Origin: Tribonema minus
Lineage: Eukaryota; Sar; Xanthophyceae; Tribonematales; Tribonemataceae
Direction: 5' to 3'
Assembly: GCA_017506865.1 (NCBI GenBank)
Contig: JAFCMP010000555.1
Location: 496,001 to 560,000, forward strand
DNA: 64,000 bases
In this document: positions 264 to 64,000 of the stretch, one piece after another
Position numbering within the stretch: the stretch's first letter is position 1
Layout of the letters: each line of letters starts with the position of its first letter
The notes under the pieces: model-generated
What the model was told of the DNA's origin: nothing
Seen by the model: the letters and a program-made list of their open reading frames with translations, nothing else
Database searches by the model: none
Translations under genes and position numbers: made by a program

Positions 264-3200
264 CTGAACGGTGATGCGCACGAGATCCGCGCCGGCGTCC
301 GCGCACCGCATGACCTGCAGCGGAGGTGGCAGCGGCAGCAGCAAACAGGGTCATCAGGCTTTTTTTGCGTCACACGCGGTAGGCGAGCGCGCGCAGCAAC
401 ACCCTCCCCAGTGGCACTGAGGAGTTTCAGCTTGTGTACGCCAGTTGTAGAAAGTGGCGCATTTTGTACTGTGCTATCGTGGTGATGATTAGCAACAAGA
501 CTCTGATAGCTGCGGCGGAAGAGAGCAAAGCGGTAATGGACTGTAACTGACACAGCCCGACGCAGCAGAGCCAATTGCGGCCAAACAGCTGACTGCAGCC
601 GACTTAAAAAACAATCGAAGAGTATGAGTTCTTGCAAGGGCCACAAGTTCAACATCAACTGGTGGGGTCTACAGCATGGACACACTGCCACCATCGCTTA
701 TAACAGGACCTTGAGTGCTGGTATCATACTAGGGATGACTAGCCAAGAAGCAAGGGCAGCATACAACGTGCAATGAGCTGCAAATGAGCGCCGTCGCTGC
801 AGCCTTGCCAGCATGAATGGCGGGTCATCACTTATGGCGCTGCGCTACCGCAAGGCGCCAGCCCAGACACAATTTCAATGAGCGCCAATGGCAGCGTCTC
901 TCAAGTAACCAGACCCTGACCCTATCCCTAACGGTATCCCCCTCCTAACCCTAAATAGAACAGCTACCAAGCGCTGGGCGCGCGGTCCTCAACGGTGCCG
1001 TGCGTGTAGCCATGAGAATTGTCGAGTCGGCCGTCGAGCGTTGTGCAAGCACACATGCGCCACCGACGCCCCGGGCACAGCTTGCAGCCTGACCATTGCG
1101 GCAGCATCATCAGAACACAACGGCCACGCTGCTGCTACATGCGAGGAGCGCATGTAGTCAGTATGTATGCGCGCTGTGGTCATTTCAGTCGCTGCGCGCT
1201 CGCGCCGTCAATCGTTGGAGTACCACAACATGCCGTGTGCGCAACGCGCCGCGGCGCGCTGCAACGAGCTGTACCCGCCCCTGCGCGACTGAAATGCCAA
1301 TGATTTGTTGCCGCGATACGCAACGCAACCGCACAAAAACCTTGACACTTTTTGACACTGCTACAAAACAAAGCTGAAAAGCGCTCAAGGCCGACCAGCT
1401 GCACAGCAACGAGATGCGACTGACTACGTGCCTGCCCCATCACTGCCGCCGCATTGCAGGCGTCCACAGCGGCCATTGGCTACAGCGCTGCGACGTACCG
1501 CACCCGCCCCTGCGCGACTGAAATACCAATGATTTGTTGCCGCGATACGCGACGCAACCGCATATGCACATACATACGCTCACGCGCGTGCGTGGCCATC
1601 CGCGGCATACGACGCGGCGGGGCGGCGGTTCTGCGAAGCACGCAACGCGATGCTGTGCGCTCGGCGCCCGCCACCGCGTGTACACGACCATCGCGCTGCT
1701 GCTGCGCCGTGCGGCAACGCACCGCGCTCCTCGCGAGTGCACCTACGTATCATAGTCAGCGCCCGTACATAAACAGCTCGGGGACAATGTTAGCTATGGG
1801 TCAAGCTACCTAGGGTTAGGCTAGCTAACCCTAACCTACCTGGTCGACCGTCGCCGCGACGTTGCGCGTGTCGGTCGTAGTCATGGTCTGCAGCGCAATC
1901 CTGTGCTCCGAGCCGATGGGCACCTTCCCCGCCCACACCGTGCGCGTGGGCCGACGCCGCGTTGCCGTTACGCTCTCGCAGTACTTTGTCATCTGGTCCA
2001 GCGTGAGAATCGGGCTCTCTCCGTCCGCCTGCATGCCGAGCGAGCGCAGCAATTGTTGACTTCTGTTGAAGGCGGCAGGTGTTTGCGTCAACTCAAAGTG
2101 CAACATTACGCTCTCGGAGTACTTTGTCATGGGGTCCAGCCTGAGAATATAGCTGCTTCCGCCGGCGTGCGGCACGTGTGTGAGCGAGCGAGGGCAGCAA
2201 TGATTGACTTATGTCATGTCTTTTCTTCTGGTTCTGTTGTTGCTCTACGCAGAAAGCGCGTTCACGCTCTCGCAGTGTGAGGATAGGGCCCTCCCCGCCC
2301 GCATGCGATCAAGGCGTGAGCAAAGACAGCAGGCAGTATGCTATAAATCCCGTTCTTCTCTGGTCATATTGTGAGGGACCAATTGAACAACGAGCCTGCG
2401 CCGCGTTGCCGCCCGCTTCGAACAGCACGCTGCCATCTGGTCCAGAGTGAGACTGCAGCTCTGTCCGTCGGCCTGCAGTACGTGGCCGCGGTGCGTGGGC
2501 TTCTACTTCAAATTCATTACTCAAAAAGCGAAAGCACAATTTATTTGGAACAGTAACCAAGTTAATATTGCGCGATGCCAGCGTTTGTGTTCATTCTGGA
2601 AGCGCTACAGCAGCCTGGTGCCTGAGACATCTGTTTTTTTTTTAACTGAGCTTGCGGCTTGAGTCACCAGCCCGCGGCACAGGCCGCATCACAAGTAGTG
2701 GATGAGACGATTGCATAAATGCCACGCAAATAAATTGTGCACACATAATACACTCCCTTGCGCGTGTGCATGCTCAACATAACTGAAACCAATCGACATG
2801 TACAGAGGTGATTCACTTCAACCGCCCCATCACACATTCTGTGTGTCGTTTTCAGCTCTCTCATCATCCAAACTCCAGGCAACATACATGAAGTTGTATG
2901 TTGCCGAGATGCTTCATGCGATTTTTTGTAATTGGCAATTGCAATGTGTCCGAACCCAGCAGCGGGGTTTTCGGCATTATAGCACTCGCATCTTGATCAC
3001 TCAAGGCATGAAGCCTGGGACGCACGAACAGGCCCATAGTACAGGCACGGGCTACTGCAAGCTTGCGTCGCTGTGCAGGATCCACTTTGTATAACGGATT
3101 TTCGAAGATCGTGTCTTGCAGCACGAATTCAGCGCAGCATGCTGCTTTACATCGTAGCCACGCAAATGAACGACAACGTCCAATGGTGCCTGGATCTCTG

Positions 3201-3703
3201 CATCAGGTTGCCACATTGCTGCCGCTGCTGCGAACTGTTCGTCTGCACCGTGAACAGAGAGAGTCCATAGGTGCATGGAGCTGATTCGACAGCTGCTGGG
3301 ACTTGCGCTCTGGCGCGTCATTACGGAAAGCATATGGTCGAAACAGGGCCACACTCGCAATTTTTGCGACTACAAATAATGCGTTCGCTTGTGCAACCGT
3401 GCAGTTTCGAGTGCAAAGTGCTTGCATGTGTGTGTTCGTGCATGTTGGGAACATCAACTGAATGTCTTCGGGCAACCTTGCCGCGAAGCATGCTGATGTA
3501 ATGTCGCCATGTGCGCAGATGTCAAGTGGTACTGCCCAGTGAATCATAGGCATCAGTCATGCTGGAAGCTTAAGGCTCACCGCCATGTGCAGGACATGTT
3601 TGCTGCTGGATTGAAGTGCAGGAGGGAGGAGCTCGGGCTTGGGAAGGAAAGCCGTGGCGACAGCCAGCCCTCCAACCAGCAGCGTTGTCTGCAGCGGCGC
3701 CAT
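264..3703 (-). CDS. ispG: IspG/GcpE (HDS), plastid MEP-pathway enzyme, 5' part of gene
   Basis: 4-hydroxy-3-methylbut-2-enyl diphosphate synthase, an iron-sulfur enzyme of plastid isoprenoid synthesis. Three exons are visible: 3581-3703, 1840-2028 and 264-314, all joined in phase 0 with GT-AG introns. Exon 1 begins at the ATG at 3701-3703 and encodes a hydrophobic signal-like segment ending in VATAF, then a Pro/Ser-rich stretch, which fits a bipartite plastid presequence. Exon 2 contains TRTVWAGKVPIGSEHRIALQ and TMTTTDTRNVAATVDQ. Exon 3 reads VMRCADAGADLVRITVQ. Together they follow the N-terminal part of plant and algal HDS without a gap. The rest, including the Fe-S cysteines, must lie left of the window. 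Joining exon 1 to exon 2 rests on phase, order and the plastid signal, not on homology. The donor of exon 2 runs directly into a TTAGGG-type repeat. Confidence 0.85.
315..1839 (-). other. Intron 2 of ispG
   Basis: No coding exon was recognised. The stretch contains CCCTAA-like runs near 905-955 and 1810-1839 and a 60-bp direct repeat (about 1273-1332 and 1501-1562). Open frames here look like chance. Confidence 0.5.
1273..1562. repeat. 60-bp direct repeat, two copies
   Basis: Positions about 1273-1332 and 1501-1562 share a near-identical segment containing CTGCGCGACTGAAAT and TGATTTGTTGCCGCGATACG. The copies are about 228 bp apart, inside ispG intron 2. Confidence 0.8.
2105..2500 (-). repeat. 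Copies of the 5' end of ispG exon 2 inside intron 1
   Basis: Three decayed partial copies (about 2107-2205, 2255-2310 and 2434-2500) repeat the acceptor side of exon 2, including the region encoding LTLDQMTKYCESV. The third keeps a CTGCAG acceptor before the matching codons. All lie just upstream (transcript sense) of the intact exon at 1840-2028. Confidence 0.8.
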
Positions 3704-4823: not shown

Positions 4824-7800
4824 CTAGACGGCGGTGCCGGGCCCGTCGGAGTCGGGGGTCCTCCCCCACCCGCCCCCCTTTTGGCCGCCGTACCGCTGGT
4901 CTTCGCCGCCGAACTCGCCGAACGTCGGGTCCTGGCTGCGCGTGAAGGCGTTATCCCCGAACTGCGGCGCGCGGGGCAGGGCAGGCGTGCGGAGGGTGTG
5001 TGGACGCTGTGGGATCTCAACTTCAATGACAACTTCAACATCAAGCTGGGGGCTCACGGTGCAACAAGTGGGAAATGAGCGTGTTGGCCAACATGTCTTC
5101 TGCTGCGAGCGGTGCAGTCTGCGTGGCTTTTTCGTATAGGGATAGGCGGCGTTGTGACGTCTGGCTGCGCAAAGCACGCACGCAGGCGACGAGCATGCTG
5201 GGTCGACAGCAAGCGACATTGTGTGAATGTACTGCATACATCCTGAAGCTTGATGTTTGGATGGTGTCAAGTCTGATGCATGCTAGGTCGACAGCAGCGG
5301 CGCTGTGTGGTGCAAAGCATAGTGTACATGTTGAATGCTGAGATTTGGACGGTGTCGAGTGCCATGCAGCCAACAATGCACAACAGCCATCACTGCGCTG
5401 CGCTTCACCTGTAAGTCCTTGGTTGACTCCATCTTGCGAGTCTTATCCCTCGGCATCAGCACCTGTATTGCGACAGGCGGCAGCGCAACGCAGCACAGCT
5501 CAGAGTCAGCAGCAGCAGCAGCAGCAGCAATGGCGGAAACACAGCAACACGCAGATCATTGCCTCAATCATCAGCTCAGATCATAGCTGTGATCCTAGTC
5601 TCAATGCATGCCTGACCTTGTCAATAATGCGATACTGCACAGCCTCTGCGGTGGACAGGTACAGTCCCGTACACAGTCGGCGTGGATCCAATCACGGGTA
5701 TGCACCGTGATACTGACCAAAATCTGAACCCTCATACGAGCCCTTACCCTTATCTCAACGCCAACCCTGATCATTGACTGAACCCTAGCCTGACCTTGGT
5801 CAATGACGCCATACTGCACCGCCTCCGCTGGTGACAAATAGAAGTCACCCTGAAGTCGGCGCGGATCCTGTCGCGCGGCGTTGGCCCTGTGATGGCAGAT
5901 TACCATTTGAACCGTAACCCTAAGCCGACCACTTGTGTCAACTTAAACACTGATCATTGTGCTGATTCCTACGGTAGTCTTGCCTTGTCAATGACGCCGT
6001 TCTGCACCGCCTCCGCGGCGGACAGGTAGAAGCCGCGCTGGAATTCAACACGGATCTTGTCGCGCGTGTGCCCCGTGATGGCCAACTATAATCTGAACCA
6101 TAACCCTTAATCTACCCTCAACCTCATCTCAACCCTGACCCCTGGATCATTAACTTTAACCCCAGCCTGACGTTGTCATGGCACCGTACTGAACTGCCTC
6201 CGCGGCGGACAGGTAGAAGTCGCGCTGAAAGTCGGCGCGAATCTTGTCGCGCTGGTGACCCGTTATGGCTCACCAAAACCAAAACCCCCTAACCTTGACT
6301 CAATGTCATCGCTAAGTCTGATCATTGTATTAATTCCTGTTGTAGTGTTACCTTATCGATGACGCCATACTGAACTGCCTCCGCGGCAGACAGGTAGAAG
6401 TCGCGCTGAAAGTCGGCGCGAATCTTGTCGCGTGTGTGCCCTGTGATGGCCGTGAGGGCCTCCTCCATCCTGTTGTTCTTCTTCACCATCTGCCCCACCT
6501 GCAGGTTCAACATAGCACCAGTTGAAGTTGTGTCAGTACACCTTGTTTAGCGCGTTCAGGTACAGACTTCAAAGCAGTGTACTGGGCGCTGAAGCTGGCG
6601 GCAGCGGTGCGCACTTGATGGCAATCGACCCTAACCCTAACCCTAACCCTGATCTTGAGATGGAGGACTGGTACAGTAGCGTATGCAGACGTACACCTTC
6701 AAGTATGAACTTCAGGTGCTCTGTGGCTGTCATGGCCTCCATCCTGTTGTTCTTCTGCACCATCTGCCCCACTTGCAGTCAACAAAGCAGCAATTGAGCC
6801 GCACACCTTGTGAAGAACTTTCAGGTACACTCTTCGAAGATTTGTACTTACACGTGGTGACTGTGCTGCACATTGAGGTATATGGCAGTGACGGTCATGA
6901 GAGCCTGCTTCGTCCTGTTGTTCTTCTTGCCCATCTGCCGCACCTGATGATTCAAGGTGCACCGCCGGCCAACGGGTGACGATCGGCAGCGGTTGCGCAC
7001 TGCTGCGTAAGTTAAATAGCGTAACTGATGTTAACTGTTAGTGTCAGTTAAAATACACAAGCAGCAGGCTTTGGACGTGCACACACAAGCCACCGCCAGA
7101 AAGCATGCCCTGAAGGTTTCATACTCCTGCCGACTTGAATGCAGTCGCACCTCAATGCCAGCATCACAAGCCTGCCCGCGGCATGCCTTTGTCCCCGTGC
7201 ACTGCGCGAGGAAACGCGCGTTGTGCAGGTTGCGCTAACCCTGACCCTATCCCTAACCCTAGTTATCCTTAGACTGATGCATTTCATGCGAGGTACCTCC
7301 AGCCTGCCTCTGCGAGCACAGCAAGGAGCGCGGCGATGCACCAAAACTTCAACTTGAGTGCCGCCGCAGCTGGACGACAGTGTCGTGCGCGTTTTTGCAC
7401 CGCTGTTCTGCTTGGACTCCACGAGTCAACTACTCAGACTCTGCAAGCCAATTACTCAGACTCTGTAAGCCAAGTCACTCAGACTCTGCGCGCGCCACTA
7501 CGCCCTAACCCTAACCTGGCCCTAGCCCTAAACCTAGCCCTAATCCGAGGGGGAAGATGTGCGGACAGCAGCTGAGCTGTGTGGTGGCGCACCTCGATGC
7601 CGATGTCGGACGCCTGCCTGCGGTACGCGTCGCCCTAACCCTAAGCTGGCCGTAAGCTTAAATCTAACCCCAGGGGACGATACGTGCGAAACAGCAGCCG
7701 ACCAGTTTAGCGGACCTCGATGCCCATGTCGGACGCCTGCCCGCGGTACGCGTCCTCCATGCTGGTGCGCTGCACGAGGAAATGCGCGTTAGGCAGCGCA

Positions 7801-10800
7801 AAGCGCCTCGCCCTAACCCTTACTGACCCTAACCCGACCCCCTCTAAACCTATCCCTAACCCCAACCCTAACCCTTACCCTAGCCCTGGCCCTAATACTG
7901 AGGAAAGACACGCGTGCGGACAGACGCTGAGCCGTGCAGCTTACCTCGATGCCGATGTCGGACGCCTGCCTGGAACGCGTCGCTCTAACCCTAACTAGCC
8001 GAAACCCTACACCCAAAGACACACGTGCAGCAGCTGAGCCGTGTGGCGCACCTCGATGCCGATGTCAGACGCCTGCCCGCGGTACGCGTCCTCCATGCCC
8101 GTGCGCTGCATCAAGAAGCGCGCGTTCGGCAGCGCAAAGCGCTTCCCCTTGTCCCCAGCGGCGCACAGGAACGACACCATGCCCGTGGCGAGCCCCAAGT
8201 TCAACGTTGAAGTTGGGAACGCCATCTGCTGCATCGTGTCGAAGACCGCCATCGCCGGCCGCAGGTTCGCGCCGGGGGAGTTGAAGTAGAGGGACACGGG
8301 CTTGTCGCGGCTCTCCTGTTGTTGAAGTGCGGCGCGGACGTGAGAGCGGCGGACTGAGCATCGCTGCAATCAGCTGGTCGCTGCATGTAATCACACATGG
8401 ATGAGTGCAAGCATTGGCGTATGTATGTACATGAAATACCTTGAAGTACATGTACACGAGCATGCCCGCCTCGCAGCGATGATGCTGGCGGCGCTAGCCG
8501 TACATGGGCTAGTACGCGATTGTGAAGCGCTTGGGGGGTTAGTGCAAGGGTCATCAGCGAAGAGAATGCATGGGCATAGTAGTAGCCATACTGGAGCAGG
8601 TTGCAAGGTAATGAATACTTCTATTGCTTCAGCGGAGCGTCACAGTTAACGAGGTGCTCGCTGAGCTGGTCAGCGCACTCATTGGAGGTTGAACTTGCCC
8701 AAACTCGATGACCGGTCAGCGCACTCACTGCATCTTGAAGTTCACCACTGATGAGAATGCGCGGGCGCTGCAGCCGGTGGCAGGAATAAAATTGGGACTG
8801 AGGGTACGCGCAGGTACGTCAATAAATGCGTGCATACCCACCTTCTCGAGGTAGAGCATCATCGCTATAAGCTGGTTGGCGTACTCGTCGTCGATGAACT
8901 TGCCGACCATGAGGATGCGCGAGCGCTGCAGCCGCTGGTTCACGCCAACCCAGGTCGCCTGGTCCGAGCCCGGGGGCTTGTAGGGCACCTGAGCACACAG
9001 CGCGAGTGCAAGTTGAAGTTGAGTGCAGAGTCAAAGTTGAGATATGAGCTTAGTAGTTACAGCTGTTTGCATGCCGACCCAGGTCGCCTGGTCCGAGCCC
9101 GGCGGCTTGTAGGGCACCTGAGCACACAGCGCGATTGCAAGTCGAAGCTGAGTGCAAGTTGAAGTTGAGATTTAACTTTTAGTAGTTGAAGTTGGTTTTG
9201 AGGCGACCCAGGTCACCTGGTTCAAGCGCGAAGGCTTGTAGGGCACCTGAGGCACAGCGAGCGCAAGTTGAAGTTGAGAATGCATTCTTCGTAAGTGAAG
9301 GTGGCTTTGGTCCAAGCCGGGGGCTTGTAGGACACCTGAGCGCACGCGCGGGTGCAAATTGAAGTGAGAGTTGATCTAGTAGTTGAAGTTGAGGTTGCTG
9401 CACGTATAGTTGAAGTTTGGATATTGAGGGTTGCCGACCGCACAGCGTGGAGAGGCACTGAGCGCACGCACACGTCGTGCAACTCCGGACGCGTGCGATG
9501 GTGTATGTCATACAGCGCGGGGGTGGGAAGCAAGAGTTCATGACTGATGGCGTGTTGAGGTACAGTGATGGAAATAGGAAGCGGGACGGTGGAGGTGTCA
9601 AGGCAAGGTGTTGGCCTCGTCTGAAGCTGCACACGCTGGCTTCCGTACGCGGCGTACTCAGCAGTCGCAACATGGCTCCAAAGTGCAGTAGTCTGCTGCT
9701 GAGGATGTACTTAGCTGCTGCCAGCTGCTGGTGGCGCAGCCATGGGCAGTGGCATGCTGCACACAGCAAAGCAGATGCCGCCATCCGATACCTACCCTAC
9801 CGCAGCATAGGCAACGTTGCACGGCCGAGCTGATCGATGCCAAGAATTCGGAGCCGCACGGGCTGTCGTGCACTTAGTGAAGTTGCATTGCGCGGTGCGC
9901 CATCGCTGACTGGACGTGGTGCGGCGGCCACGAGGGCAAAAGCGCATACAGCCAATGGACGGCGCTTCCAAGAAAGGCTTTTCAAGATTGGGGTTGAACT
10001 TGGGGTAGAGGTCGTGCACTACTGCAGCATGCTCCGCATGTGCCGCAGAACCGCAAACGAGACACCAGTACAGCTGGCCCTACCCATGTGTTGTGGCTTT
10101 CCGCACCCACAAGACTGTTCGCCTCTTGCGGACCCGCAAGCTGATTAGTGCTGGTGGCCAGCAATGAACAGCGTCTCCGCACGAGAGGGTGCTTGTGAGC
10201 CGTAATCTGCCCCGCACTTCAATACTGCCCAGTTGGGGCATGTGGGCGCACTTTGCAGTGGCATAGATCAATTAAAAGCCAGAATGTCAATGGGCCATCT
10301 GTACCCAAGGGTCAAAGTTCAGGCTAGAGTTAGGGTTAGGGGTAGGATAAGGGCTTGGCTCACAACCCTGGTGCAGCGCACAATTAAATGATGCGGTGAC
10401 GTGCCGTAGAATGCACATGCCTGCGCCATCAGTGATTGATGCATCACAAGTGCCCCTGCAGCTGACTGGCACACACGTCAATCACCAGTGCTGACTCATC
10501 CCGTGGCATGCTGCTGTGCCATGACACGCATAAAGAAAGCTGCCAATATACCGGCGCTTAGCTGCATGTCTGTGCATGTACAACTGCTGCCCCAAAGCTA
10601 CTTCAGAAGCATTTAGAGACATGTGTAATAAGAACTGGCTTGGGTGTGCTTTCAAGCGCCTGCTGTGGCAGAAGCGCCGTCAGTCAGCAAAGCACAGAGC
10701 TGTGCTGTCTTCTACTTGCTGAGCCATCGGTGATAATTCTTAATCACTCATGCAGCTTCTCAGCGGCAGCTTGTCTGTCGACTGTTGATCAGCGCCGATC

Positions 10801-16871: not shown

Positions 16872-19800
16872 CTAAACAAGGGCCTCGAGGCTCACGCCCA
16901 GCAGCTGCGCGGCCTGCAGCTTGCTGAGCGCCGCTGCCTTCATCTGGCACAGCGTGCCGATCTCCTCGCGGTCGCGCGTGAGTCGCATCGCTCTGCAGCG
17001 GCGCGGGGCAGGGTAAGTGGCGGTCAGGGGCAGCACAAGTGGCGGTCAGGTCAATGCACGCGCGGAGTGACAGCGTCGTGTTGCGTGTTGGGGTGGTCAG
17101 TCGCGTGGTGTGCCTGAGAGCCCGCAAGAACACTCATGAGGCGGTTATATTAACACGAGCACTCTTTCTGGTTTCTACAAGTGGCGGTCAGGTCGATGCA
17201 CGCGCAGTGTGACAGTGTCGTGCTGTGTGTTGGAGTGGTCAGTCGCCTGGTGTGCCAGGGAGCTCCCAGGAACACGGGTGTTCACACTCATGAGGCGATC
17301 CTGCTACAATGAGCACTTTTGGTGTTTTAGGAGTCGGGTTGCACTTTAAGTTGTGCGCTTGAGGTTGTACACTGTTGACGATTTGCGAATCCGAACGCTC
17401 TGCGGCGGCTATGCGGCACAGACAAGGGTCAAAACGATGCATGCGCATAGTGACAGTGTTGTGCTGCATAGGAGGTCAGTCGCCTGGTGTGCCTGAGAGC
17501 CCGCAGAAAACACTCTTGAGGCGATCCTATTAAGTTTAGAAGTACAAGTAACAAGCACTGTTTTCTTGAGCAAGCTGGGTTGCACTTTGAAGTTGTGCAC
17601 TCGGAACGTCCTGCATTTTTTGTTCGAGATCAGTCCGGTACTTTTGTGTGCTCGACTCTGCGGTCCCAAGCTGGCATGCCCAGGCGTGCTGAGCGCTCGT
17701 GATGTCTAACCCTAACCCTAACCCTAACCCTAACCTAACCCTAACCCTCTTTCCCTATGCGCGCAAGCACGTGTGTGTCGAGTCGCTGTCATGGCGCAAG
17801 CTCAGGTTCCACTGCACCGGTGATCTGCAAAATGTCAATATCGCACGAATTCGCACAGGTGCGTGCACTCCATAAAGACGGCATAGGTAAATGTAATCAG
17901 GCTGCGCAACGAAGGCACAAACCAGGTCACTCTCACGATGGGGGCGTGGTCGGACAACAGCATAGGCACCAGAATGGCAGAGCTGATTGCACAGTCATTG
18001 CACGGTTGACCGCCAAGTTTGACGTACATCAAGATCGGTGGCATACGGGGTATGGAGCCAAGCAATACTTTTGGTGTGTTGAAGTGCAGCTCTGTACTGA
18101 ACTATCTGGACAGAGTGCTGCGCAACATCAGTCATGGCGCCCAACTGGTGGCGCATTGAATCGCGAGTGAGTGCACTGTCCGTGCTTACAAACTTGCATG
18201 GAAGTACTTGACACGAGCGGGCAGAGATGCAAGCGCGCAGCGCGTCATCGATCAGGCAGTTCCGCGTGAACTTGCACACGCTATCATATCACCTAACACG
18301 TGAGACCTTTCCAACACTGAACACCCATGCCTCGAACGCTAAAAGCTTGCACACAGAAGTCTCTTTGACTGGTGGATACGGTGGTACTGTTTGACTCATG
18401 GCTAATTGCTGCAGCAGCGGCGACCACGGTTATTGGTGGAAGGCACTTGCGGCTGACCATCCCTTGTCACCTGGAGCTCTACGATCTTTTGATTCGTTTT
18501 CATCATATATATATCAAGGGCGGACCACGAATGCACTGTACGCGTTTACACGCTTGCATGCTTTAAACTACGCCATACAAGCGGGCAGAGATTGGACGCC
18601 CAGAGCCCGGGGGTGTCCTGAGGCGCAAATGGACCAGTTCTGTATTGCACCCATTGCGCACACTACATGACATCAGTAATCACGCTAGGCCGGAGCGCGG
18701 GTAACTACGTAGTCCACTGCAGATGTGACTGCGCACACGCTACACGAGATATTGCGCAAGGATGCGCAAGGATTCAGATCGTCCTTTGAGTAGGATTAGG
18801 GTTAGGAAAATTCCCTTCACAAAGGGAAAAACAGTTCCACATAATGTTATAGGAATCGATGGTGCTTGCAAGGTTTTTATTCATCCAGCAGGCCCTGTAC
18901 GTACGGTCAGGGTTAGGGTTAGGGTTAGAGTTAGCCGCTGTGAGCGCACCTGTCGTACAAGGCGATGCCCTCCATGATCGCTTCTTCCGTGGTAGCCTTC
19001 CGCACCTTGGACTGCGCGCACAGAGGCGAGGTCACAGCGGGGGCAGCGCCAATTGCCACCACATTCTTAGTGGGATGCTATTCCAATATCGTAATACATG
19101 TACATAAACGCGGCAAATGCTTTGGTGCGGCTCACCGTAACCCTTGGGTTAGCGTTTGGGTTTGGGTTAGGGAGCGTCCTTTGGCGTGAAGACGCCGCGA
19201 GCCGCACGGCATAGGGGAGCAGCTGCGCTGTGTACTTGCTCCAGACACTCACAAAATGGGAGACGCATGAGCGAAGCAGGTGCGGTGCCAACCTGCAGTA
19301 CCTAGTACACCGTATGGTACTTTGGAGTATGACAAACAGCAGTACAACCATTTGAGTGCGCACAAAGTGCACCAATAACAGTTCAGCAGCGCTCGCCCGT
19401 CCCTCAAAGCACGAGCCTCGCTGTCATGCAAGTGTACTGTACGTACCTCGGGATCGACGATTGAGGCAGTGCTTAACCTTACGGAGGAGCACCCCGCCTT
19501 GCGTGAGCAAGGTAGAGGATAGCGGCAATGAGATAGATCCCCCTCAATTCCGAAAGCGCATTCCATGAGCCGCTGAGCCTCCACCTCGTCTAGCCCTACT
19601 CATCTTATCTCAACCCTAAGGAGCGCCGTCGAGGAGCTTCTTAGGGTTAGGTCAGGGTTAGAATGAGGGTCACTAGCACTAGGTACCTGAGCAAGGTGGG
19701 TGACGCCGCAACAAGTTCCCCATCGATCACGAGAGCGCGTTTGGGCGCTCAGCCTCTGCTGCGTCTAGCCCTAGCTATCTTAGTTCAACCCCAAGGAGCG

Positions 19801-46300: not shown

Positions 46301-49300
46301 GAGCGCTGCTGCCGGGGGGGCTGTGGTGGGAGCGTCACAAGAACGTGAAGTTCTACGCCAAGGGCCTGCCCATGCCGCAGTTTGACAAAGTGGTAGGTCG
46401 CCATCGCCGCACGGCAGCGTTGAATGGCAGCGCTCGGTGTTTGAACTTCTTGACTTGAAGAAGTCATTTGCGAGATGGTCTGCGTCCGTGCCTGCTTGAT
46501 GGCTCGGACACCGCGCGAATCAATCTTTGAAGTCGAGTTTGTGTACTTGAAACGGGCGTTGCGTCAAGCACTTCGAAGCAGCATTGGAACGCAGCAGCTG
46601 CGCCGGTGCACAGAAGCAGAAGTGCAATGTCTTGTGCTATGATTTATTGAAGTTCTAAGCGGCAGCGGGCGGTTAGCGTCAGCGGCAATGGACACAGGCT
46701 GCAACTTGCCTGGTATTACAGCCTCAATCCACTGGCAAGCAGGCAGCTGACGCAGCAGATGCGCATGCAGCAGAGCACGCGGAGGGTGCTGAGCAATGCT
46801 GACACGGCCATTCAGCTCAGCCTGCTGCCAGGTTTGCTGCCTTGCTGGAGAAATCGCCAGCAGATTTTGCAAGTAACGCAGTGAGGCTCTGACCAGCATT
46901 GCGGCACCCGCCTCAGCCAGTGAAATGAGCGTCCAAGTGCCCCTGTCTCGCAGCTCTGCCATTGCGCTGTTGCACACCGCGCGCCGCTTGCTGCAATCAG
47001 CGCCCGCACGCGATCGCGCATGACAGCAGCCGAGCGCATGATCCCTCCGCATCCACACCACTCGTGTACCGCTGCGCCTTGGCACGCGACTTCGCTTGTG
47101 ACGCCATTGTAACCCTAGCCCTAACCCTAAGTGGCAGTTATGTTGACCGGCTCACACTCTTGTACCCTCACTTGCGCCACCCGTTTCAACTGCCACGCCC
47201 CGTGCAGGACGCTGCCCCCCTTCAAATGCTCGTTCCTTTGCGCTGGTGGTGCCCACTGCGGCTGCAAAGTAGACGGTGCATCTGGACCAGCTCGGAACCC
47301 TCCAGACGCAGCATTCACTTCTTGATCGCCCAATCCTAACCCAATCCCTGACCTTTCAGACGCCTCGTTTGCTTCTCAATTGCCTAACTATACCTCTAAT
47401 GCTAGCCCTTCAGACGCCTGATTTGCTTCTCAATCGCCCAAGCCTAACCCCAACCCTAACCCTAACCCTTCAGACGGCTCATTTGCTTCTCGACCGTGCA
47501 ACTCCAACTCTAAATTTGACCTAACCCTTCAGACGCTTCATTTTCTTCTCGATCGCCTAACCCTCATCCTCTCCCTAACCCTAATTCGCTGCTGCGCAGG
47601 ACGACGCCCTGCCCGACTACTCCACGGTTCTGTTTATGGCGTTTCTGGAAATTTACAAGACGGGCGGCATCTACGGCGACCTGACGCTGTTCCACGCAGC
47701 GCCGCTGCCAGAGGTGAGCACTGCTGTCATACTTCAAGTATATTAATACTGGTGGCAACCTATTTTAGTGGTAGTGCTATGTATGACCACTCACAGCGAC
47801 AAAGACGGGTGGCATCTATGGCGACCTGACGCTGCTCCACGCGGCGCCGCTGCCGGAGGTGAGCATCACTGTGTTCAATCAGATGTCTTAAAGACTTACA
47901 TTCTCTAAAACCACAACGCATGCAAAGACTACAATGTCAGCTGCAAACTTGAGCACTGGAATTGCTCGTGAACGCACACATTCGTGAGGAGCCGTACCTG
48001 CGCACCCCGAAGTCCAGATCGGTCATCATGATTGTCACAGCTTGTCAAACACAAAAAAATGGGACACTCGGCTTGTAAAGTATGCCCTTCATCGCAGTGT
48101 TCGCACGCACTGCCGCTGCCTGCGCCGCAGGGACTCGACGGCTTTGTGGTCGGCGGCATGGGCCCCGGCAGCGCCGGCGCAGACTACAACTGCAGCGGGC
48201 GCACGAGCCGCGGGCGCTACCACCTGCCGCTGCTCATGCAGTGGAGCGCGCCGCGCCACCCCGTCGCCGCGTGCATGCTCGCCGCGTACGACGACCCCGG
48301 CAGCAACCTCAACAGGCGAGTGTTAATGTTCAACTTGAAGTTGGTGTGTTTTGAAAAATGAAAACCACAAAAAATCTGGTGACAGCGCCGCGACACCCCG
48401 TCGCCGCGTGCGTGCTTGCGGCGTACGACGACTTTGGCAGCAACCTCAACAGGTACAGTTGAAGTTGAAAGTTGCTGCACATTTTGCAGATGGGAGAGTG
48501 CATGAGAGGCGCGAGCAAGCGTGCCGTGATAGCATGGTGCGTGCTTGTGCCGGATCACACGTGTAACGGAGCGTGCCGCGGACCGCATATGGCGTACGAC
48601 GACCCCGGCAGCAACCTCAAGCAGGCAAGTGTTGAAGTTGAAGTTAGTTTATGTTATCCGACATCACGTGAGAGTGCCGGGGGACGCTGCTGCTACGTGC
48701 GTGCTCGCGGCGTACGAGGTCTCCGGCAGCAACCTTTACAGGCGAGTGGCCATGTTGAACTTGACGTGGGTTCTTTTAAGTGAATTGAAAGCGACAGCGC
48801 CACGGCACCCCGTCGCCGCGTGCGTGCTCGCCGCGTACGACAACCCCCGCAGCGACCTCAACAGGTGAGTCCCCGTGTTGAACTTGAAGGTGGTGTGTTA
48901 CTAAAAAAATAATAATAAATGAAGTGACGCCGAGGAACGCTGTCGCTGCGCTCGTGCTCGCGGCGTACGACGACTCTGGCAGCAGTCTCGATGGGCGAGT
49001 GGCGCCACCCTGCAAGGGCGCGTCGAGTCGCAGCGCTCAGCAAACTTCATATTTGTCACAAAAGCAAAAGCAACATCAACATGGTGGCACTGTTTGACTC
49101 GTGGCCAATGACTGCAGCAGCGGCGACCACGGTCATTGGTGGAAGGCACTTGCGGCTAACCATCCTTTGTCACCTAGAGCTCTACGATCTTTTAATTCGT
49201 TTTCATCAACAAAGAAAAGAAAAGAATAAGGAAAGGAGGTCGGCAGGCAGAGTGGGAGATCACCATTCCGCTGCAGAAGCACGACCGCCAGCGAGCAACA

Positions 49301-50958: not shown

Positions 50959-50989
<31 letters not shown>

Positions 50990-53900
50990 ACACACTCTTT
51001 TTCTAGTAGCCCCCCCCCTGCACTCTCTCATCTAGTTCTAGTAGCCCCCCTCCATCCCTGGCAACAGATGCCTGGACGCCGACGGCGCCGACCCTGAAGG
51101 CTACAGCAGTGCGACCGACAGTACAAATCAGAACTGCGATTGCAGTTTGGTCTGAATGCATCGATTGCGCTTCACTGCACAACCGGGCCTGTATTACCCC
51201 CCCCCCCTCCAAACACACGCACTCTAACCCCCATCCCCTTCCCCCCCCCCCCCCCCCACGCCTCCCCCTCAAACAGATGTCTAGACGCTGACGGCGCAGA
51301 CCCTGAAGGCTACAGCAGGGCCACCGACAGCGGTCTCGCGTGCGTGCTGCACACGGTGGACGCGTGCCTCGCGCAGAACGGCCTGACCAATCAGCTCGCG
51401 GCGGGGGCGGGCGCGGTGGACTGGCGCATGTGCGACGCCAGCGCGGACGACGACGTCAAGGGGGTGAGCGCTGTCACATTTGTGTGTTTGTGTCCCCAAT
51501 GTGCTAGTGCTTCAGGGGCCGCAACTGTCGGTGCATCTGACCAATCAGCTCGCGGCGGGGGCGGGGCGGTGGACTGGCGCATGTGCGACGCGAGCGCGGA
51601 CGACGATGTCAAGGGGGTGAGCACTGCCACACGCGTGTGTGTGTTGTGTCCCAGATGTGCTACTGTGGCAGTTTCTGAGGCAAGAACGGCCCGACCAATC
51701 AGCGTGCGACAGGGGCGGTGGCCTGATGCGAGCACTGATGCGGGGGCAGCATGAATCCATCCGAGGTTTGGGACTCTTTCAGAATGCCCAGAGCGGTGCG
51801 CAGAGAGTGACGTGCCCTCACTGGCACGACCCCACCAGAACAAGCACACACTTTGGAAGTCTGCCGTTTCTGGAAACATAGCGTCTCACCAAGTCAGTCG
51901 TCCCGCGTGCACGTGCAGACCGACGCGGAGGTGGCCGCCGCGAAGGCCGCGCTCGACGCCATGACACAACTTCACCATCCACTTCAACTGGGCGCGGCGG
52001 CGTCGGCGACGGACGGCGCTTCGGGGCACGCAGCGGCGGCGGCGGCGGCGGCACCGCTGGCGGCGCCGGTGGCGTTCTGGTTGGGGCGCGGGACGTATGA
52101 TGGGCTGTGGCGCGAGCCCAAGCGGGGGTCGCTGGCGGCGGAGGCGTTCTCGCGGCTGCAGCTGACGCGGTGGGCGCCAGAGCAGGTGCGCACGCCGCAT
52201 AGAAGAAGTTGTAAGTTGAAGTTTGATTTTAACAGGTAAGTCGAAGTTTAAAAGTCAATCGCGACCATGGGGCTCTGGGCATGATCTGCTGCGCACGGCA
52301 ACAGAATATGGCGGAGGCGTTCTCACGGCTACAGCTGACGCGGTGGGCGCCCGAGCAGGTGCGCGCTCTACTCATGAGTCAAACTTCAAGTTGAAGCTTT
52401 AAGTTGAGGTTTGATGTCAGCAACTCAGAAGTTAAAAGGTGAACGCGGCGATGGGGCTCTGGGCACGCCCTGCTGCGCACAGCAAGATAACGGGCTCGCA
52501 AATCGTCCATTTGTCAATTGTGTGGCAGCGCTCATAGAAGGGGCGGCGCGCTCACCGATTATCCCGGATTGCCCTCAGCAACAGTTCGTCTGCAAGTCGT
52601 GATGGAAAAAACAGCTTTGTGACCTGCTGCATTGCTGGTGAACAGCGCCCGTACTATGATGTACTACGAGGTTCACCTTGTGGTTTACTTAATCGGGATC
52701 GAGTGAGCTCGCACGCACCACTCGCCAATTGGGGCCTCCTTCTGCAGTACATCAAGAGGTGACTTGCCTGTGGTGTACAGACGCCACGCTGTGACGCTGC
52801 TTCGTGGCGCCCCGGGTCTGTGACAGCCTGCACACGCTTTCCGTTTGCTGGTGCTGCTTGCGCACTGCCTCCGCTTGCAGATCGACCCGACGTGCCGCCT
52901 GTCCTGTCCGCGCTACCACGCCACCGCCAACGAGGTGAGGCCTGCACTTCAACTTGCAGTTGGGTGCACTTTGACTTGAAGCTGTCAGGCACACGCAGAG
53001 TTTGCGCGCTCGCCTGCTAGCATTTTGGTTGTCAAGGGCTGCAGCACGTGCTGTGGCGCGACGTCTATTTCAGCACTGTGGAGCACGTTTTGTTATCAGC
53101 GCCACAGCGAGGCCAGCCTCACTGCACACCAGCTTGAGGTTAGGCTTGGCGTGAGGTTTTGAAGTTTGTAGTGTGTGCCCATACCCAGCAACCGAGCCCG
53201 GCTTCTTTTTTCATTTACTTCAAACCACTTCGAAGTATGCATTGTCACGGGTCACGCAGTTGCAGACGTCATACCCGATCACTGCTCTGTTGGCAAGCTA
53301 CCGCTCGCGCGCGCGCATCACATGTGCCCTCACCCTGTTGATTGGCAGAGCGTGGGCAGCCTGGCGCAGGCGCAGTCCGTGTGTGCGCCAACGGTGCTCG
53401 TCTACTTCAAAGCATTCATTTTCACAGGTCACGCAGTTGCAGACGTCATACCCCCTCACTGCTTTGGTGGTGAGACTCCGCTGCACACGCGTCACACGTG
53501 CTGTTGCCCTCTTTGTCCGCAGAGCGCGGGCAGCCTGGCCCAGGCGCAGTTCGTGTGTGCGCCGACAGTGTTCGTGCCCGGCGCGCAGAAGGGCGCGTCT
53601 ACATTCCTCTTCCACGCCATCACGTGGCACCCGCAGGTGCATTTATGGCATACGTACACGAATTGTATGAGTGTCCTTCATTTTGTGGGTGAATAATCCA
53701 ATGATATTTATGTACTGGAGGAGTGCAGTATATCATGTATGTTACTAGAGTTGCCGAAACCGTATATCGTAAATTTACGGTACGGAAATATACATCGTAT
53801 GGTACGCCGTATGTTTGAATGGCATCGTATATTCCGTAATTTACGGTGGAATTATACGGTCGAACTTTTCGTACCCATTTTTTTCGGTACGATTTTATTA

Positions 53901-56900
53901 CGGTGACGTGGATGATGCAAAGGAGCGTGATGGCGGGCAGTGGTGGTGATGGCGCTGGCGCCAAGACGCTTATATCACCTCAGCCTGGCACAGTCAGCAA
54001 GCCGCAAGTGACCCAACGCCAAAGTAGTGGACGAAGTTAAAGTTCCGAAGTTCAAGATCTTCTTGCGCCACCGCTGTGGTTCTGCGATAACACTATGGTA
54101 GCAACCCTGCGCGTACTAACACTGAGCACATCCACAGCAGGGAAGACAAGCTGCAGGGGCGCAGACGAGGCAGCAGCAACACAATCGCCACGTGACCTCG
54201 GCGCTTCCAAAAGCAAAGCCAGAAAAGCCTAAGCCGTACGCCCTGGCTAGTGTTACGTGGCTCTGCATCCAAGGGGGTCTAGACCCCCTTGCTGCACCTG
54301 ATCGAAGACCCATACTTCAAGCGTTCATTTTTTTTTTAAGTGAAAACTTCAAGCGCTGTCCACAAGCATGGGGCCCCATATGGGGAAGGCATGACTTCAT
54401 TGCAATGATGGCATCTTCACCATCGTACTTTCTACTTCTATAACGATATGGTCAGCTGTACCCATCCTCATTGCCGACATTGAATGCAGTGATCTTTGGT
54501 AAATGCTTGATGCTATGCTTGCTTGTCATTAATTCAATAAGTTGGCTCACCTGTGATGTGCAGCAAGTTGAAGTTTTCATACTAGCAGCACGCAGCATCT
54601 CGTGTAGTCATCTGTGCCTGTGTTACCATATGCGAGGCGGACCATGTGGCGCACAACACATCATAATAATCACATAATTACAATAATTGCGGCACATACG
54701 GTTTACGGTTGGGTGTACGGTTTTACGATTACGGTACTACGGTTGTACGATCACAGGTACGGCATACGTTTACGGTTACGGTACGGTACGTTTACGGCCT
54801 ACGGAGTATATTTTCAAAAACCTACGGTTTTGGCAACCCTATATGTTACACATGCATGTATGATCCAGTATGCCGGGCGCGCAGAAGGGCGCGTCGACTT
54901 TCCTCTTCCACGCCATCACGTGGCTCCCTCAGGTGCGCTATAGACATACTTGAAGTGCCTGTATATACCTCATGAGTTTACTGTAGGTGTTTGGAATATA
55001 TGCATGAATAGTATTTACTGCTACACTTTTTAGTGCACACCTGTGTGTGTACAAGTGTGCCGGGCGCGCAGAAGGGCGCATCAACTTTCCTCTTCCACGC
55101 CATCACGTGGCACCCGCAGGTGCGTGTGACATCACCTTTTACGAACTACTATCTCGACGTGTATACTTGGTCAGTGTACTTCAGGTGTAGTATATACATT
55201 ATAGTACATAGCCAGGTATGCACAAGTGAAGTGTGCCGGGCGCGCAGAAGGGCGCGTCGACGTTCTTCTTCCACGCCATTACGTGGCACCCGCAGGTGCG
55301 TGGAATATCCGCATTGTATATACTCAATCAGTGTACTTCAAGTACACACTCTAAAGTACACGCATGTATGCACAAGTGTGCCTGGTGCGCAGAAGGGCGC
55401 GTCGACGTTTCTCTTCCGCGCCATCACGTGGCACCCGCAGGTGCGTGTGACATGAACATGTATCTCGAACTATATTCTTAGTTAGTGTACTTCAGGTGTT
55501 TGGAATGTATGCATGAGTAAAGTATAGAAGTATAATACTTTGTAGAGTAAAGTATAGAGTATACAACTTCATAGTACACACTCATGTAAACACCAGTGTG
55601 CCGGGCGTGCAGAAGGGCGCGTCGACTTTCCTCTTTCACGCCATCACGTGGCACCCGCAGGTGCGTGTGATAGGCATGTGTTCATATCTCGTGAGTGTTC
55701 TTCAGGTGTAAGAAGAATATACACAACATGTGCTGCAAAGTATACTCCTGGTGCACACGCATAAATGCACAAGTGTGGCGGGCGCGCAGGAGGGCGCGTG
55801 GACACTCCCCTTTCACTCCATTAGATAGCACCCGCAGGGTTGTGGAATATCATGTACTTGGTGAGTGTACTTGGTTTGAAGCAGTGCGTGGGCCAAGCTT
55901 TGAGGTGCTCATTGGCGGACGCGTGATCCTCAGTTGTGCGCTTGCTACCCCTAACCCTAGCTGCTGCGGCTGTCCGTGACGTCCTCTACGGCCGGCATGG
56001 CCGCGTCGATTGCCGAAAACCGCGTGCTGCATTGGCGCGCTCGTGGCAGTCGACAAAAGCGTGCAATGACTTCAGCGCTTCACCTTCCATGACATGGAAG
56101 GCTCTCTTGAAAGGCGTTCACTTGAAGTACAAACAGCGACGTCAAACTGCGCAGCACGACGAGCGGGTGCGCGCTGCAACCGCCACAGGCCCTGCTGAGC
56201 ACTGCTGCATGTTGTGCCGCGCCAATTGAAGTAAAGACAGACGTTGAGTTGCGCATGCGAGCCGCTGGTGCGCGCTTAGTAACTGTCATGTAACTGTCAT
56301 GAACGCTGCCGCATTATTTTTTGCTGCGCCCACAGGTGGTGCAGCCGCTGCGAGGGGCGCACGGTTTCAAGGAGACTGGCAGGTGACTCTCCTTGATCGT
56401 ACTTGAAGTATAAGTTTTGCATCATTTGAAGTACAAGCCTATATACACCCTCAGGGTTGGGGTTAGGTTTAGCACGGCTTCAAAGGAGTTTGGCAGGTGA
56501 CTCTTCTTGACGATACTTGAAGTAGAAGTCTACAACCACCTCTTGAAGTATAAGCTTATAACGACCTCAAAGGAGCAGTGCGGAAGTGCCGCTTGCAGGC
56601 ATGACCCATCCGTTGGCGCCGATTGCATCCCCAACCAAGTTGTGAGATATCACTACTTCAACTCGTGATGACTCTCCTCGAAAGCAGCAAGCTCACCTCC
56701 TCGAGCACTGCAAGGGCGCTGCCTGCGACCCACGCATAGGTTGTGCAAGTGCAGTCGTTATACCGCCTCAAGCTGTCTGCACTTGCTGTGGCAAATGCAC
56801 TGCACGCGGAGGCCGCAGATTTCAAGCTTGTTGTGGATGCATTGAGGGGCAAGGGGGGGGGGGGGGGCGGCTCCAGGGGAGGGCTTCAGGAAGGTTGGGC

Positions 56901-59900: not shown

Positions 59901-62900
59901 TGCCGCTCGCGCTGCCGTCGCCGCCGCAGAACTTCATCACGGGCGATGGCACGGTGACGTACATGCTCACCAACTTCTGGACGCCGCTCATGATAAAGGT
60001 GAGCCCCCCCCCCCCCCACCCCCCACCCCTTTCCCATTGCCGCTCCCTTTGCACTCATGAAGTTTTCAACGCTGAACCTTGTACAAGAAATGAATACTTC
60101 AGGTCAATGTGTGCATATACCTGGAAGCGTGCTGCGTTTGGCGCCGCTGCAAGCACATGCTTGAGCATGGACCTTACACCAGGCCCACTCATAACCCGCG
60201 CTGACGATATGCCTCGCTCAGGACGACAGCCTGAATGCGAAGATCGTCTTCGCACTGCACAAGCCCGTGGAGCGTGCGTGGTCGGAGTACCGCTGTGTAT
60301 ACGCCACCTTCAGATATTCCCATGTACGTATGCATGTGCTGCCTTTGCAGTTGTCGACCTCCATTCAAGCCCTGCAACAGCTCGTGCTGATGCTGTTTGG
60401 CCCTCTCAGGAGGACGGCCCGAACGCGAAGATCGTGTTTGCGCTGCGCAATCCCGTGGAGCACGCTTGGTCGGACCACCTCTTTGTGTACAATTGCATAT
60501 GCATAGTACAGTATGTGTGCATGCTGCCCTGGCGCTCTACCAGCTCGAGCTGGTGGTATCTGTGCTCCTCAGGAGGACAGCCTGAACGCAAAGATTGTGT
60601 TTGCGCTGCTCAATTCCGTGGAGCATGCGTGGTCGAACTACTGCTTCATGTACAGCTGCATTTATGCATAAACATGTATGCATGCTGCTTCTGCAGTCGC
60701 TGACCTCCATTCAAGCCTTCTAACACTTCGTGCTGACACTCTTTGGCCTCCTCAGGAGGACAGCCCGAACGCGAAGATCGTGTTTGCGCTGCGCAACCCC
60801 GTGGAACGGGCCTGGTCGGACTACCGCTTCATGTTCAACATCTACCAGGCGCGCGACCAGCCGTTCTCCGACGTCATCGAGCGCACGCTGAACCCCATGA
60901 ACAAGGTATGCAAGGACGTGGTACGGAAGGACGCGACGCGATGGCGCCTAGCTCCACTGGGTCATGTTGACACATCGGCGAACTCTTGTGCACTGTTGAA
61001 GTATCGTTCATACCTGTCTAGTAATTCGACTTCACAGACGTCGTCGAGCGCGCGCTGCTCCCCATGAACGAGGTAAGCGAGGACGCGACGCGATGGCGCT
61101 TGGCTCTACTGAGTTGTGTCAACATAGATCACATTGACGGACTCTGCAAGTGCTCAACACTTTGGTCAGTGCACTATTGAAGTATTACTCATAAATATCC
61201 GGTGATTTGACTTCACCGACGTCATCGAGCGCACGCTGCGCTGCATGACTGAGGTATGTCAGTACGCAGTGAAATGGCGCTTGGCTCCGTTGAGTCATGC
61301 GGACATCACTCACATTGGCGTACTCTCACTGCCGCGACACGTTAAATGGTCGGCCAGGCGCCTGCCGTTTCAGCAATGCTGCTACCCTGATATAATTGTC
61401 TGCGGCAATGGAGGTACGCTGCTTGCTGAATGATCTGGCTGAGGCCGTCTCTTGCGGGGACTGAGAGCGCAAAGCTCACCATCGTGCCAGGAATGGACAA
61501 CCAAGGGACCCAAGCAGACACAAGACTCTCGGCTAGTGCATGTGTTGCTAGAAGTGATCATTGAGAACGCAGGAGGCAAACATGAACAGCCACGTCAGTG
61601 CTCAACATGACCCAACCTCAACATGAGCTGAGCTGTGCGCTGTCAGGGACCAAAGCCGCCTTTCAAAGGGGATCGGGCAGTGCCGCATTGAGCCTGCGCC
61701 AACCTTTTCGTCTTGAAGGGCCCCTGCCGCCAATTCATTGTCCAAATTGCGAGGCAGTATCTAAGTAGGTCGCTTTTGTTCGACACTGGCATGGAAAATG
61801 GGGGCGCTTGGCCCCTGAAGCTTCATGCCCGATTTGAATGCCATGAAAGACGGCCTGAGCAGCACGTTCGCAAGGACCGTCGACGCCGCGGGCCAAAAAG
61901 TGAAAGTTGCAGTTCACAGCGCGTCAACATTGAGGTTGCGCTTCTGCCTCGAGGTTCCGTCGCAATCCTGCAGGTGCGACAGGCAGGTTCTTTTCAGTAT
62001 GACGGTGCTTTCCACGGCAGCCGGAGATGAGCAGAGGCCAGAGCTACATAATCAGATCTTCAGCATTACGGTGTTGCCGCGTGCTACTTCCGGAAGGCCC
62101 TTACGCGATTACTGCTAAATGTGATTTTTCCCTCAGCGGTCAGCGTCCTTTCTTGTTTCATGACTCAACGCCCCCCCCCCCCGCGCCAAATGCATCCGCG
62201 CAGTGCTTTGAGGGCGTTCCGGAGGGCGAGGAGGGCTATGCGGAGGGTATCAAGCGCTTCTACGACCCCAAGTGCACCATCGTCAAGTCCGCAGATCCGG
62301 GGTGGCTGGTAAGCTTGCACACGCCACTTGTGCAACTGGCCGTGAAAAAATTGAATTTACATTTTCGAAGCTGCAAGGGAAACGTACCGCAGGTGCATTG
62401 TGTGTTGGGTCTTGCTGTGTGATCGGCTGTGAACAACTTCCAAGTTGAATATTTCACAAAACCGCAATGGACAACTACCGCCGGTGCAGTGTTGGTTGGG
62501 TCTCGCTGTGTCATTGGCCCTGAGAAACTCCAAGTCGCACCTTCACGAATACCGCAATGGGCAACTACCGTAGGTGCACTTATTCATTGGGTCTCGCTTG
62601 GGTGCGCGCTGCGTGTACAAAGTGTGCTCAGGTGGTTTCCAGGAGCATGGGCGCCCCGATGTCGACCTGCACTCTCTGAGGTCTGTTGAAGTTGAAGTTG
62701 AAGTGCTGGAGGCGTTGCACGTCCATGTGTGCATGCTCTCGCCATCACCGGCAACAGCGCTCTGCTGAACATACATTCCACTTCACGCGCATGCCCGGCC
62801 CACTAGACTTGCAGGCGGAGGCTGTACTGCTATGCTACTGCAACTATTTGCTGCACCGGGCGCTGCAGCATCAAGGGCACCCCGCAGTTGCAGTATGCAT

Positions 62901-64000: not shown

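Follow-up and report, generated by a model that had tools for sequence, protein, structure and literature searches.

Intron lengthening is usually ascribed to transposons and small insertions, and introns can also carry minisatellites or VNTRs, direct tandem arrays that change in copy number. The arrays that we describe here, in introns of the alga Tribonema minus, resemble such minisatellites in being tandem direct copies of one unit, the number of which differs between homologous loci (L046/L047 and L049/L050, below), but their position is tied to exon edges: the unit, mostly 80-240 bp, is anchored on an exon edge and recurs at many junctions. Like introners they amount to widespread intron remodelling in a protist, although no shared mobile sequence was seen and each array derives from its own exon. 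Single tandem duplications at or across splice boundaries have been published for potato RdRp (PMC4974935), Drosophila (PMC2891723) and Cryptococcus CNN00420 (PMC2395259), all of them as intron gain. As in potato RdRp, a direct tandem duplication crosses the splice boundary and parental splice signals are copied together with exon sequence; the potato case is one event in one gene that yields a new intron and a new exon piece, whereas the T. minus copies pile up in introns that already exist, on both sides and at numerous junctions in many genes, and add no exons (PMC4974935). The Rogers/AGGT model and the Drosophila cases likewise have tandem duplication supply intron sequence, but there the duplicated piece is an exonic segment with a proto-splice site, while the T. 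minus unit is an exon end plus intron with the real junction outside it (PMC2891723). Similar in form are the units of about 107 nt in Cryptococcus, which contain exon ends and differ in number from strain to strain; there the unit is a full-length intron with exon ends and intron number changes, whereas here the unit is one junction and intron length changes (PMC2395259). A search of the literature on intron duplication and lengthening, related themes and Tribonema gave, among the matches listed, no account of genome-wide junction-copy arrays within introns, in agreement with the initial annotation of this DNA, which knew of no described genome-wide process with such a rule. Intron evolution driven by tandem duplication is therefore known; what appears to be new is its action on intron length, at many loci and with a limited unit size.

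The window analysed here is a stretch of 64,000 nucleotides (C552:496001-560000) from the T. minus genome assembly (158 Mb, 554 contigs), and it is nuclear DNA of this xanthophyte alga. Its ClpR protein, encoded on the minus strand at 4.8-11.6 kb, is 100% identical to the public T. minus protein P0001 over 99% of the 206-residue query. We delimited exons by protein homology together with splice signals and ran each one by blastn against the DNA that flanks it (E<=1e-3); a match within 20 bp of an exon end was counted as an end copy. The window sample comprises 30 exons with 59 exon sides. Outside it we used 142 kinesin and myosin exon matches (281 sides) at 40 loci on other contigs, picked for containing several matches apart from one another, which took in 106 of the 132 kinesin matches and 36 of the 96 myosin matches; their exon ends are exact in the 58 introns with a paired donor and acceptor and are otherwise the ends of profile matches. 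Window side-rule counts and coverage by distance from the exon use a corrected model of a two-part fusion gene that includes the exon at 56336-56382. Per-exon copy coordinates and the figures for spacing, decay, introns, spacer similarity and comparison with simulation use the model without that exon, in which one 5,485-bp 'intron' is really two. Array statistics come from matches at E<=1e-4, a threshold that favours younger copies.

The initial annotation had proposed that introns carry partial exon copies under a side rule, which would fail if copies showed no side preference. In the window and the 40 loci together, the preference is complete: all 100 direct matches to exon 5' ends lie upstream of the exon and all 112 to 3' ends lie downstream, with no wrong-end copy among the 212 end-reaching direct matches. 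The remaining matches were 14 interior and 3 inverted. Within the window, 29 upstream matches reached 5' ends and 1 was interior, 44 downstream matches reached 3' ends and 2 were interior, and 1 match was inverted; at the 40 loci the corresponding numbers were 71 and 7 upstream, 68 and 4 downstream, and 2 inverted. The copies sit inside existing introns (Table 1).

Table 1. Junction-copy arrays in the window, with positions counted from the first letter of the window
Feature	Coordinates	Strand	Remarks
clpR exon 2 (8842-8988) with 3 acceptor + 5'-end copies upstream	8842..9336; copies 9062-9117, 9206-9246, 9308-9336	-	q1-55, q1-41, q1-29, each after CAG
clpR exon 3 (8052-8315) with 4 3'-end + donor copies	7148..8315; copies 7943-7981, 7716-7812, 7593-7631, 7148-7228	-	all stop at last exon base, then GTAAGC, GTCCGC, GTGCGC, GTGCGA
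clpR exon 4 (6352-6498)	5616..6943; acceptor-side copies 6736-6772, 6888-6943; donor-side 6178-6269, 5984-6083, 5799-5896, 5616-5711	-	donor-side spacing ~186
TOM70-like exon 32628-32784	32302..33907; six acceptor-side matches up to 33907 (five at 5' end, one interior); two donor-side copies	-	blastn
TOM70-like exon 31678-31815	31263..31815; donor-side copies 31490-31560 (96%), 31263-31337 (84% identity)	-	blastn
TOM70-like exon 30135-30329	29774..30890; acceptor-side 30477-30504, 30850-30890; donor-side 29960-30100, 29774-29889	-	blastn
TOM70-like exon 28731-28819	28731..29033; acceptor-side copy 28999-29033	-	blastn
TOM70-like exon 26918-26996	26755..27596; acceptor-side 27135-27160, 27386-27420, 27571-27596; donor-side 26755-26774	-	blastn
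TOM70-like exon 24720-24830	24720..25394; acceptor-side copies 24989-25030, 25188-25212, 25361-25394	-	blastn
TOM70-like exon 23157-23312	22501..23953; five donor-side copies to ~22501; acceptor-side 23480-23523, 23910-23953	-	blastn; TRF array 22607-23218, period 136
TOM70-like exon 21890-22018	21268..22018; three donor-side copies, two stopping short of exon end	-	blastn
TOM70-like exon 20333-20551	19500..20927; acceptor-side copies (20651-20927); four donor-side to ~19.5 kb	-	blastn; TRF 19811-20132, period 147
Fusion gene exon 46243-46392	46107..46392; acceptor-side copy 46107-46151	+	blastn
Fusion gene exon 47600-47713	within 47600..48984; donor copy 47802-47858	+	blastn
Fusion gene exon 48131-48315	donor-side copies 48385-48452, 48592-48620, 48696-48741, 48797-48864, 48928-48984	+	blastn; donors GT or GC (47600..48984 set)
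Fusion gene exon 51277-51463	within 51068..52358; acceptor copy 51068-51121, donor copy 51537-51617	+	blastn
Fusion gene exon 51919-52185	donor copy 52310-52358	+	blastn
Fusion gene exon 53523-53636	53349..55837; acceptor copy 53349-53401; six donor copies 54871-55837	+	blastn
Short fusion gene exon 56336-56382, VVQPLRGAHGFKETG	56336..56569	+	segment in P0124, aligned with relative P0125
Fusion gene exon 60756-60905	60222..61238; acceptor copies 60222-60294, 60410-60492, 60573-60654; donor-side 61031-61072, 61212-61238	+	blastn

Junction copies are common, yet not universal. At least one was found on 29 of 59 exon sides in the window and 78 of 281 elsewhere (107 of 340 in total), and 46 of the 84 introns with both ends defined hold at least one at E<=1e-4. 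The exon list of the initial annotation was broadly right: copies occur at clpR exons 2-4, at all nine modelled exons of the TOM70-like gene and at seven fusion gene exons (2, 3, 4, 5, 6, 8 and 11 in our own numbering, on the model without 56336-56382). By blastn, the flanking introns of clpR exons 1, 5 and 6 hold none, nor do those of fusion gene exons 1, 7, 9, 10, 12, 13 and 14. The 47-bp exon at 56336-56382 has by itself no copy at E<=1e-3, and a near direct repeat starts within it (56359-56453 against 56472-56569). Copying is also local. The 142 kinesin and myosin exons gave 152 matches in their own flanks (150 direct, 2 inverted) against 19 when each was compared with one other, exon-masked locus, and these 19 may include unmasked paralogous exons; elsewhere within the same loci there were 7 direct matches and 1 inverted.

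Successive copies are mostly 80-240 bp apart, with a median of 170 (209 copies in 101 arrays), and in the first unit, exon sequence makes up a median of.32 (91 units). Direct orientation and unit length are found again when exons are ignored: 303 kb contained 449 direct and 5 inverted near repeats, the commonest spacings again 80-240 bp, and within the 84 introns 179 repeats were direct and 6 inverted. Median intron length is 812 bp, copy number rises with length (rho.57), and exon-derived sequence makes up a detected fraction of 0.081 of intron sequence. Clean full-unit tandem duplications with near-identical spacers account for 10 of 171 recent pairs (for example L046 330-616, 100% over 165 bp); the other 161 align across part of their spacing only. 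Adjacent spacers are significantly alike in 95 of 200 comparisons and show no significant similarity in 105. This anatomy and the side rule support the initial annotation's reading of tandem duplication across splice junctions that leaves the copies on the inner side.

That reading also took the outer pair of splice sites as the likely splice pair. The public ClpR protein P0001 maps to six exons and is rebuilt exactly from the outer junctions, the outermost being used wherever copies exist, and it is annotated without the inner copies. Three relatives of the TOM70-like protein (P0121-P0123) can be aligned with the outer-exon model and need no duplicated pieces to do so. The database entry for the fusion gene, P0124 (1099 aa), is marked as a product of the window, and four of its internal segments are absent from our first outer-copy model. 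Three of these, around 48.3-48.9, 52.2-52.4 and 60.2-60.3 kb, are inner copies read as coding, which comes close to the outcome that the initial annotation had named as contradicting it, namely inner copies serving as exons. We think that all three are probably prediction errors, since the relative P0125 (752 aa, 46% identical), which matches the outer-copy model, does not have them, and with one of them the sulfotransferase domain would be partly duplicated. P0125 has the same two-part architecture elsewhere, so the fusion gene is not an assembly chimera. We infer that the outer splice sites are used in RNA in most genes.

The inward growth described in the initial annotation shows in the order of the copies as a tendency only: of 52 arrays, 36 have an outermost copy that resembles the exon more than the innermost does, 14 show the reverse and 2 a tie. 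Across the 32 arrays with at least three copies, exon-likeness falls with distance from the exon (mean rho -0.42, p=5e-4; negative in 23, positive in 6). Spacers do not follow the same course. Global alignment of spacers was dropped, as random spacers already score.75, and anchored extension was used instead; it found spacer homology in 72 of 105 copies. Where the exon part is 95-100% identical, alignable spacers have an identity of.76 and 7 of 20 show no spacer similarity; where it is 60-80% identical, the values are.77 and 5 of 12. Because spacer similarity (about.75) is not coupled to exon-part similarity, a plain duplication clock fails unless exchange or some other force is added.

Paralogous loci show that unit number changes. 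Between the myosin paralogs L046 and L047, there are 4 and 3 copies after exon 2, 1 and 2 after exon 3, 0 and 1 before exon 4, and 4 and 1 after exon 5. In L049/L050, a pair that has diverged further, copies are present on two exon sides of L050 but missing at the matching exon of L049; an L049 exon that carries copies on either side was left out of this comparison, as L050 gave no profile match to it. The nearest copies after exon 3 have a common left breakpoint in L046 and L047 and therefore look like one ancestral event, and each holds a block of its own exon's variants, with a mixture at other sites (6 in L046 and 5 in L047 are like the own exon, 2 and 3 like the other). In this one case the sequences suggest patchy exchange, perhaps gene conversion, between an exon and its intronic copy. 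Exchange is not general, because the L046 exon 2 copies resemble the exon of the other paralog (own 3, other 15), while L047 gave own 13 and other 1.

We consider it likely that recurrent local tandem duplication across exon-intron junctions has both lengthened and reshaped T. minus introns, in combination with selection on the mRNA, decay and some exchange. A segment, mostly of 80-240 bp (median 170), that straddles a junction would be duplicated locally in tandem, each event copying the end of an exon together with the splice site and a stretch of the neighbouring intron. The complete exon with its junction would be kept outermost by selection on the mRNA, so that the truncated copy falls inside the intron; this would leave 3' ends with donors after an exon and acceptors with 5' ends before the next one. 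Surplus copies would then decay under at most weak constraint and be pushed inward by later events, while some would exchange with the parent exon, perhaps by gene conversion or unequal recombination, and so keep their exon parts similar as the spacers drift. The molecular mechanism of duplication we infer, and exchange, with one resolved case, may be a general feature. The side rule needs no directing mechanism, because random duplication filtered for an intact mRNA leaves every junction-crossing duplicate inward. An unbiased-duplication simulation starting from short introns gave exon-derived fractions of 0.22-0.56 (with no decay), compared with the 0.081 detected. The 'strict rule' of the initial annotation therefore needs no special process, as junction-crossing duplications of about 170 bp and mRNA selection suffice.

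Our base reading is thus unbiased duplication with selection, and its main rival is junction-targeted duplication, in which mutation itself would prefer exon-intron junctions or transcribed, spliced DNA, for example through a positioned nucleosome or transcription-replication conflict. We regard such targeting as possible but unlikely. It is kept in play because near direct repeats cover only 2.3% of two random 10-kb stretches, against 19% of gene loci and 28% of the window; near-repeat density in these 20 kb is thus about one tenth of that at gene loci, which wholly unspecific duplication would not lead one to expect, although the random sample is limited to the two stretches. With exons included, pairs at or above 85% identity are junction-spanning in 32 cases and purely intronic in 8, for targets of 21000 and 72324 (22% expected), a comparison biased by the conservation of exon sides. 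Intron sequence considered alone points the same way: among 114 adjacent pairs, 35 touch an end of the intron and a further 53 fall within junction arrays, which makes 77% if those 53 are former junction events, but the bare 35 (31%) is only somewhat over the 22% target share. Intron-intron pairs cover.25-.36 of the outer 500 bp and.08-.09 at 800-1200 bp, but farther in, at 1200-1500 bp (5 introns), coverage is again.36. In the 15 introns of at least 1.5 kb, the middles are covered less than the ends under the corrected gene model (.20 against.36; lower in 11, higher in 3) without reaching significance (p=.07), and insertions may form the middles of long introns. The unit length is close to the nucleosome repeat, which fits targeting; the unbiased simulation, however, already yields enough exon-derived sequence.

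Two stronger versions of this argument were abandoned. Junction-specific mutation had seemed a necessity when the 35 end-touching pairs were set against 6.6 at random, but this null was wrong, because junction-crossing events belong to unbiased duplication too, and geometric and simulated nulls removed the need. The apparent clustering of repeats near exons (p=.023 with the first gene model) became p=.07 with the corrected one. A bolder combination is that a mutational process near nucleosome size, targeted to junctions or spliced genes, duplicates inward and that the copies form an archive exchanging with exon ends, so that introns write back into exons; this we find doubtful, more so than targeting by itself.

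Returning to duplication with selection, the surplus copies decay in a nearly neutral manner. Their identity ranges from 70 to 100%, and 34 of 209 contain a frame-shifting gap. Changes confined to single copies differ in frequency between codon positions (.067/.062/.096; p=3e-6 against even), but they are far from the distribution of a coding sequence. Differences from the exon common to several copies fall at the three positions as 40/27/96 (third position, 96 of 163), roughly as expected if the copies drift and the exon itself has changed at silent sites. These data also bear on a reading in which inner copies are functional, their splice sites being used for alternative exons, as decoys or in stepwise (nested) removal of long introns. 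Inner AG is kept in 44 of 48 cases against 38.7 expected from exon-part identity, and inner GT in 48 of 57 (plus 5 GC) against 44.2, so that a weak function is conceivable from the AG excess; exon parts are more alike than spacers, copy-specific changes are somewhat commoner at third positions, and the P0124 model does read three inner copies as coding. Against this, the excess in splice-site retention is small, frame is lost as described, P0125 is without the duplicated segments and ClpR is annotated without inner copies. Coding function is disfavoured by frame loss and the weak codon-position pattern, and although a role at the RNA level may remain, we judge functional inner copies to be improbable.

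Three further explanations fare worse. Introners, mobile intron-generating elements whose ends would mimic exons, do spread introns in some protists, but the copies here are local to their own exon (19 other-locus against 152 own-flank matches for 142 exons), the repeated block is exon sequence that differs at every junction, and neither the other-locus control nor the search within the same loci showed similar sequence at many unrelated loci; we hold this very unlikely. Equally unlikely is an origin by duplication of whole exons with later loss of one splice site. Eukaryotic exons are commonly duplicated, and one match (L010) extends over 126 of 147 bp of an exon with unresolved ends, but none of the 226 direct own-flank matches in the window and 40 loci was classed as a whole exon, the next largest share at the 40 loci is 57%, and truncation takes the far exon end. 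An assembly artefact from collapsed or misjoined haplotypes deserves next to no credence: local tandem repeats are a known site of assembly errors, but copy identity spans 70 to 100%, the side rule recurs at 40 loci and five loci on presumed bacterial contigs of the same assembly gave 0 pairs in 17 kb.

In these introns, neighbouring exons have supplied part of the sequence: 8% detectably, and a larger share once decayed copies are included. Because unit size is limited and copies survive at many stages of decay, growth, order and turnover can be measured within one genome. The copies also provide natural tests of how the spliceosome passes over near-perfect surplus splice sites at a distance of about 170 bp, and they are a trap for annotation, as the database model that took up three inner copies in one window gene illustrates.

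Finally, clpR intron 2 may be an intron that differs between homologous genes. The sequence of exons 2 and 3 is uninterrupted in P0007 (a JGI record, 91% identical over 67% of the query) and P0081. The T. minus intron appears to be absent from both, provided that the two are open frames without splicing, which their ends suggest, and loss or gain are alike possible. Within the intron lies a degraded copy of exon 2 that covers its 3' two-thirds (score 61; 99% null, 45). Telomere-like repeats were noticed by eye at unit borders in clpR.

Telomere-like hexamers occur in strong excess across the window as a whole, and exons are nearly free of them. Within 84 introns with both ends defined, drawn from the genes of the window and from kinesin and myosin loci elsewhere in the genome, these hexamers are strand-biased: TTAGGG lies near the donor (1.34 per kb in the first 80 nt of introns versus 0 in the last 80), whereas CCCTAA lies near the acceptor (0.15 versus 1.34 per kb). 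TTGAAG/GTTGAA forms a second donor-proximal hexamer in the same introns, with TTGAAG at 3.87 per kb in the first 80 nt and 0.74 in the last 80, and its reverse complement is present at both intron ends. TTGAAG/GTTGAA could be a splicing signal or could support RNA pairing between intron ends.

Intron 2 of clpR is apparently missing from two relatives (P0007 and P0081), whose sequence continues across exons 2–3, so T. minus may have gained this intron. In the fusion gene, the database protein model (P0124) treats as coding three exon-end copies that lie in introns, a probable error that may affect further models of this genome.

Three further features lie between 36 and 40 kb of the window. Near direct repeats look, by eye, like copies of an upstream TOM70-like exon end, with a translation like ERCLVDC. 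A long open frame in the region upstream of the first modelled TOM70-like exon resembles, again by eye, a retroelement protein. The third is a large palindrome.

Features and their positions in the window
Feature	Position	Strand	Observation
clpR intron 2	8316-8841	minus	candidate gain
Long open frame	36095-37048	plus	317 aa
Near direct repeats	37291-39632	minus	several, scattered across >2 kb
Palindrome	37749-38337		82.5% match to own reverse complement over 606 columns

Elsewhere in the assembly, myosin paralogs L046 and L047 sit in opposite orientation on contig C79. Their identity is 97% in exon 2 but only 84% in exon 3, an inequality suggesting that the paralogs also exchange sequence with each other. 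Finally, seven contigs (C21, C90, C112, C179, C181, C223 and C490) carry ClpP matches within long open frames of 239–303 aa, which suggests that the assembly contains bacterial contigs.
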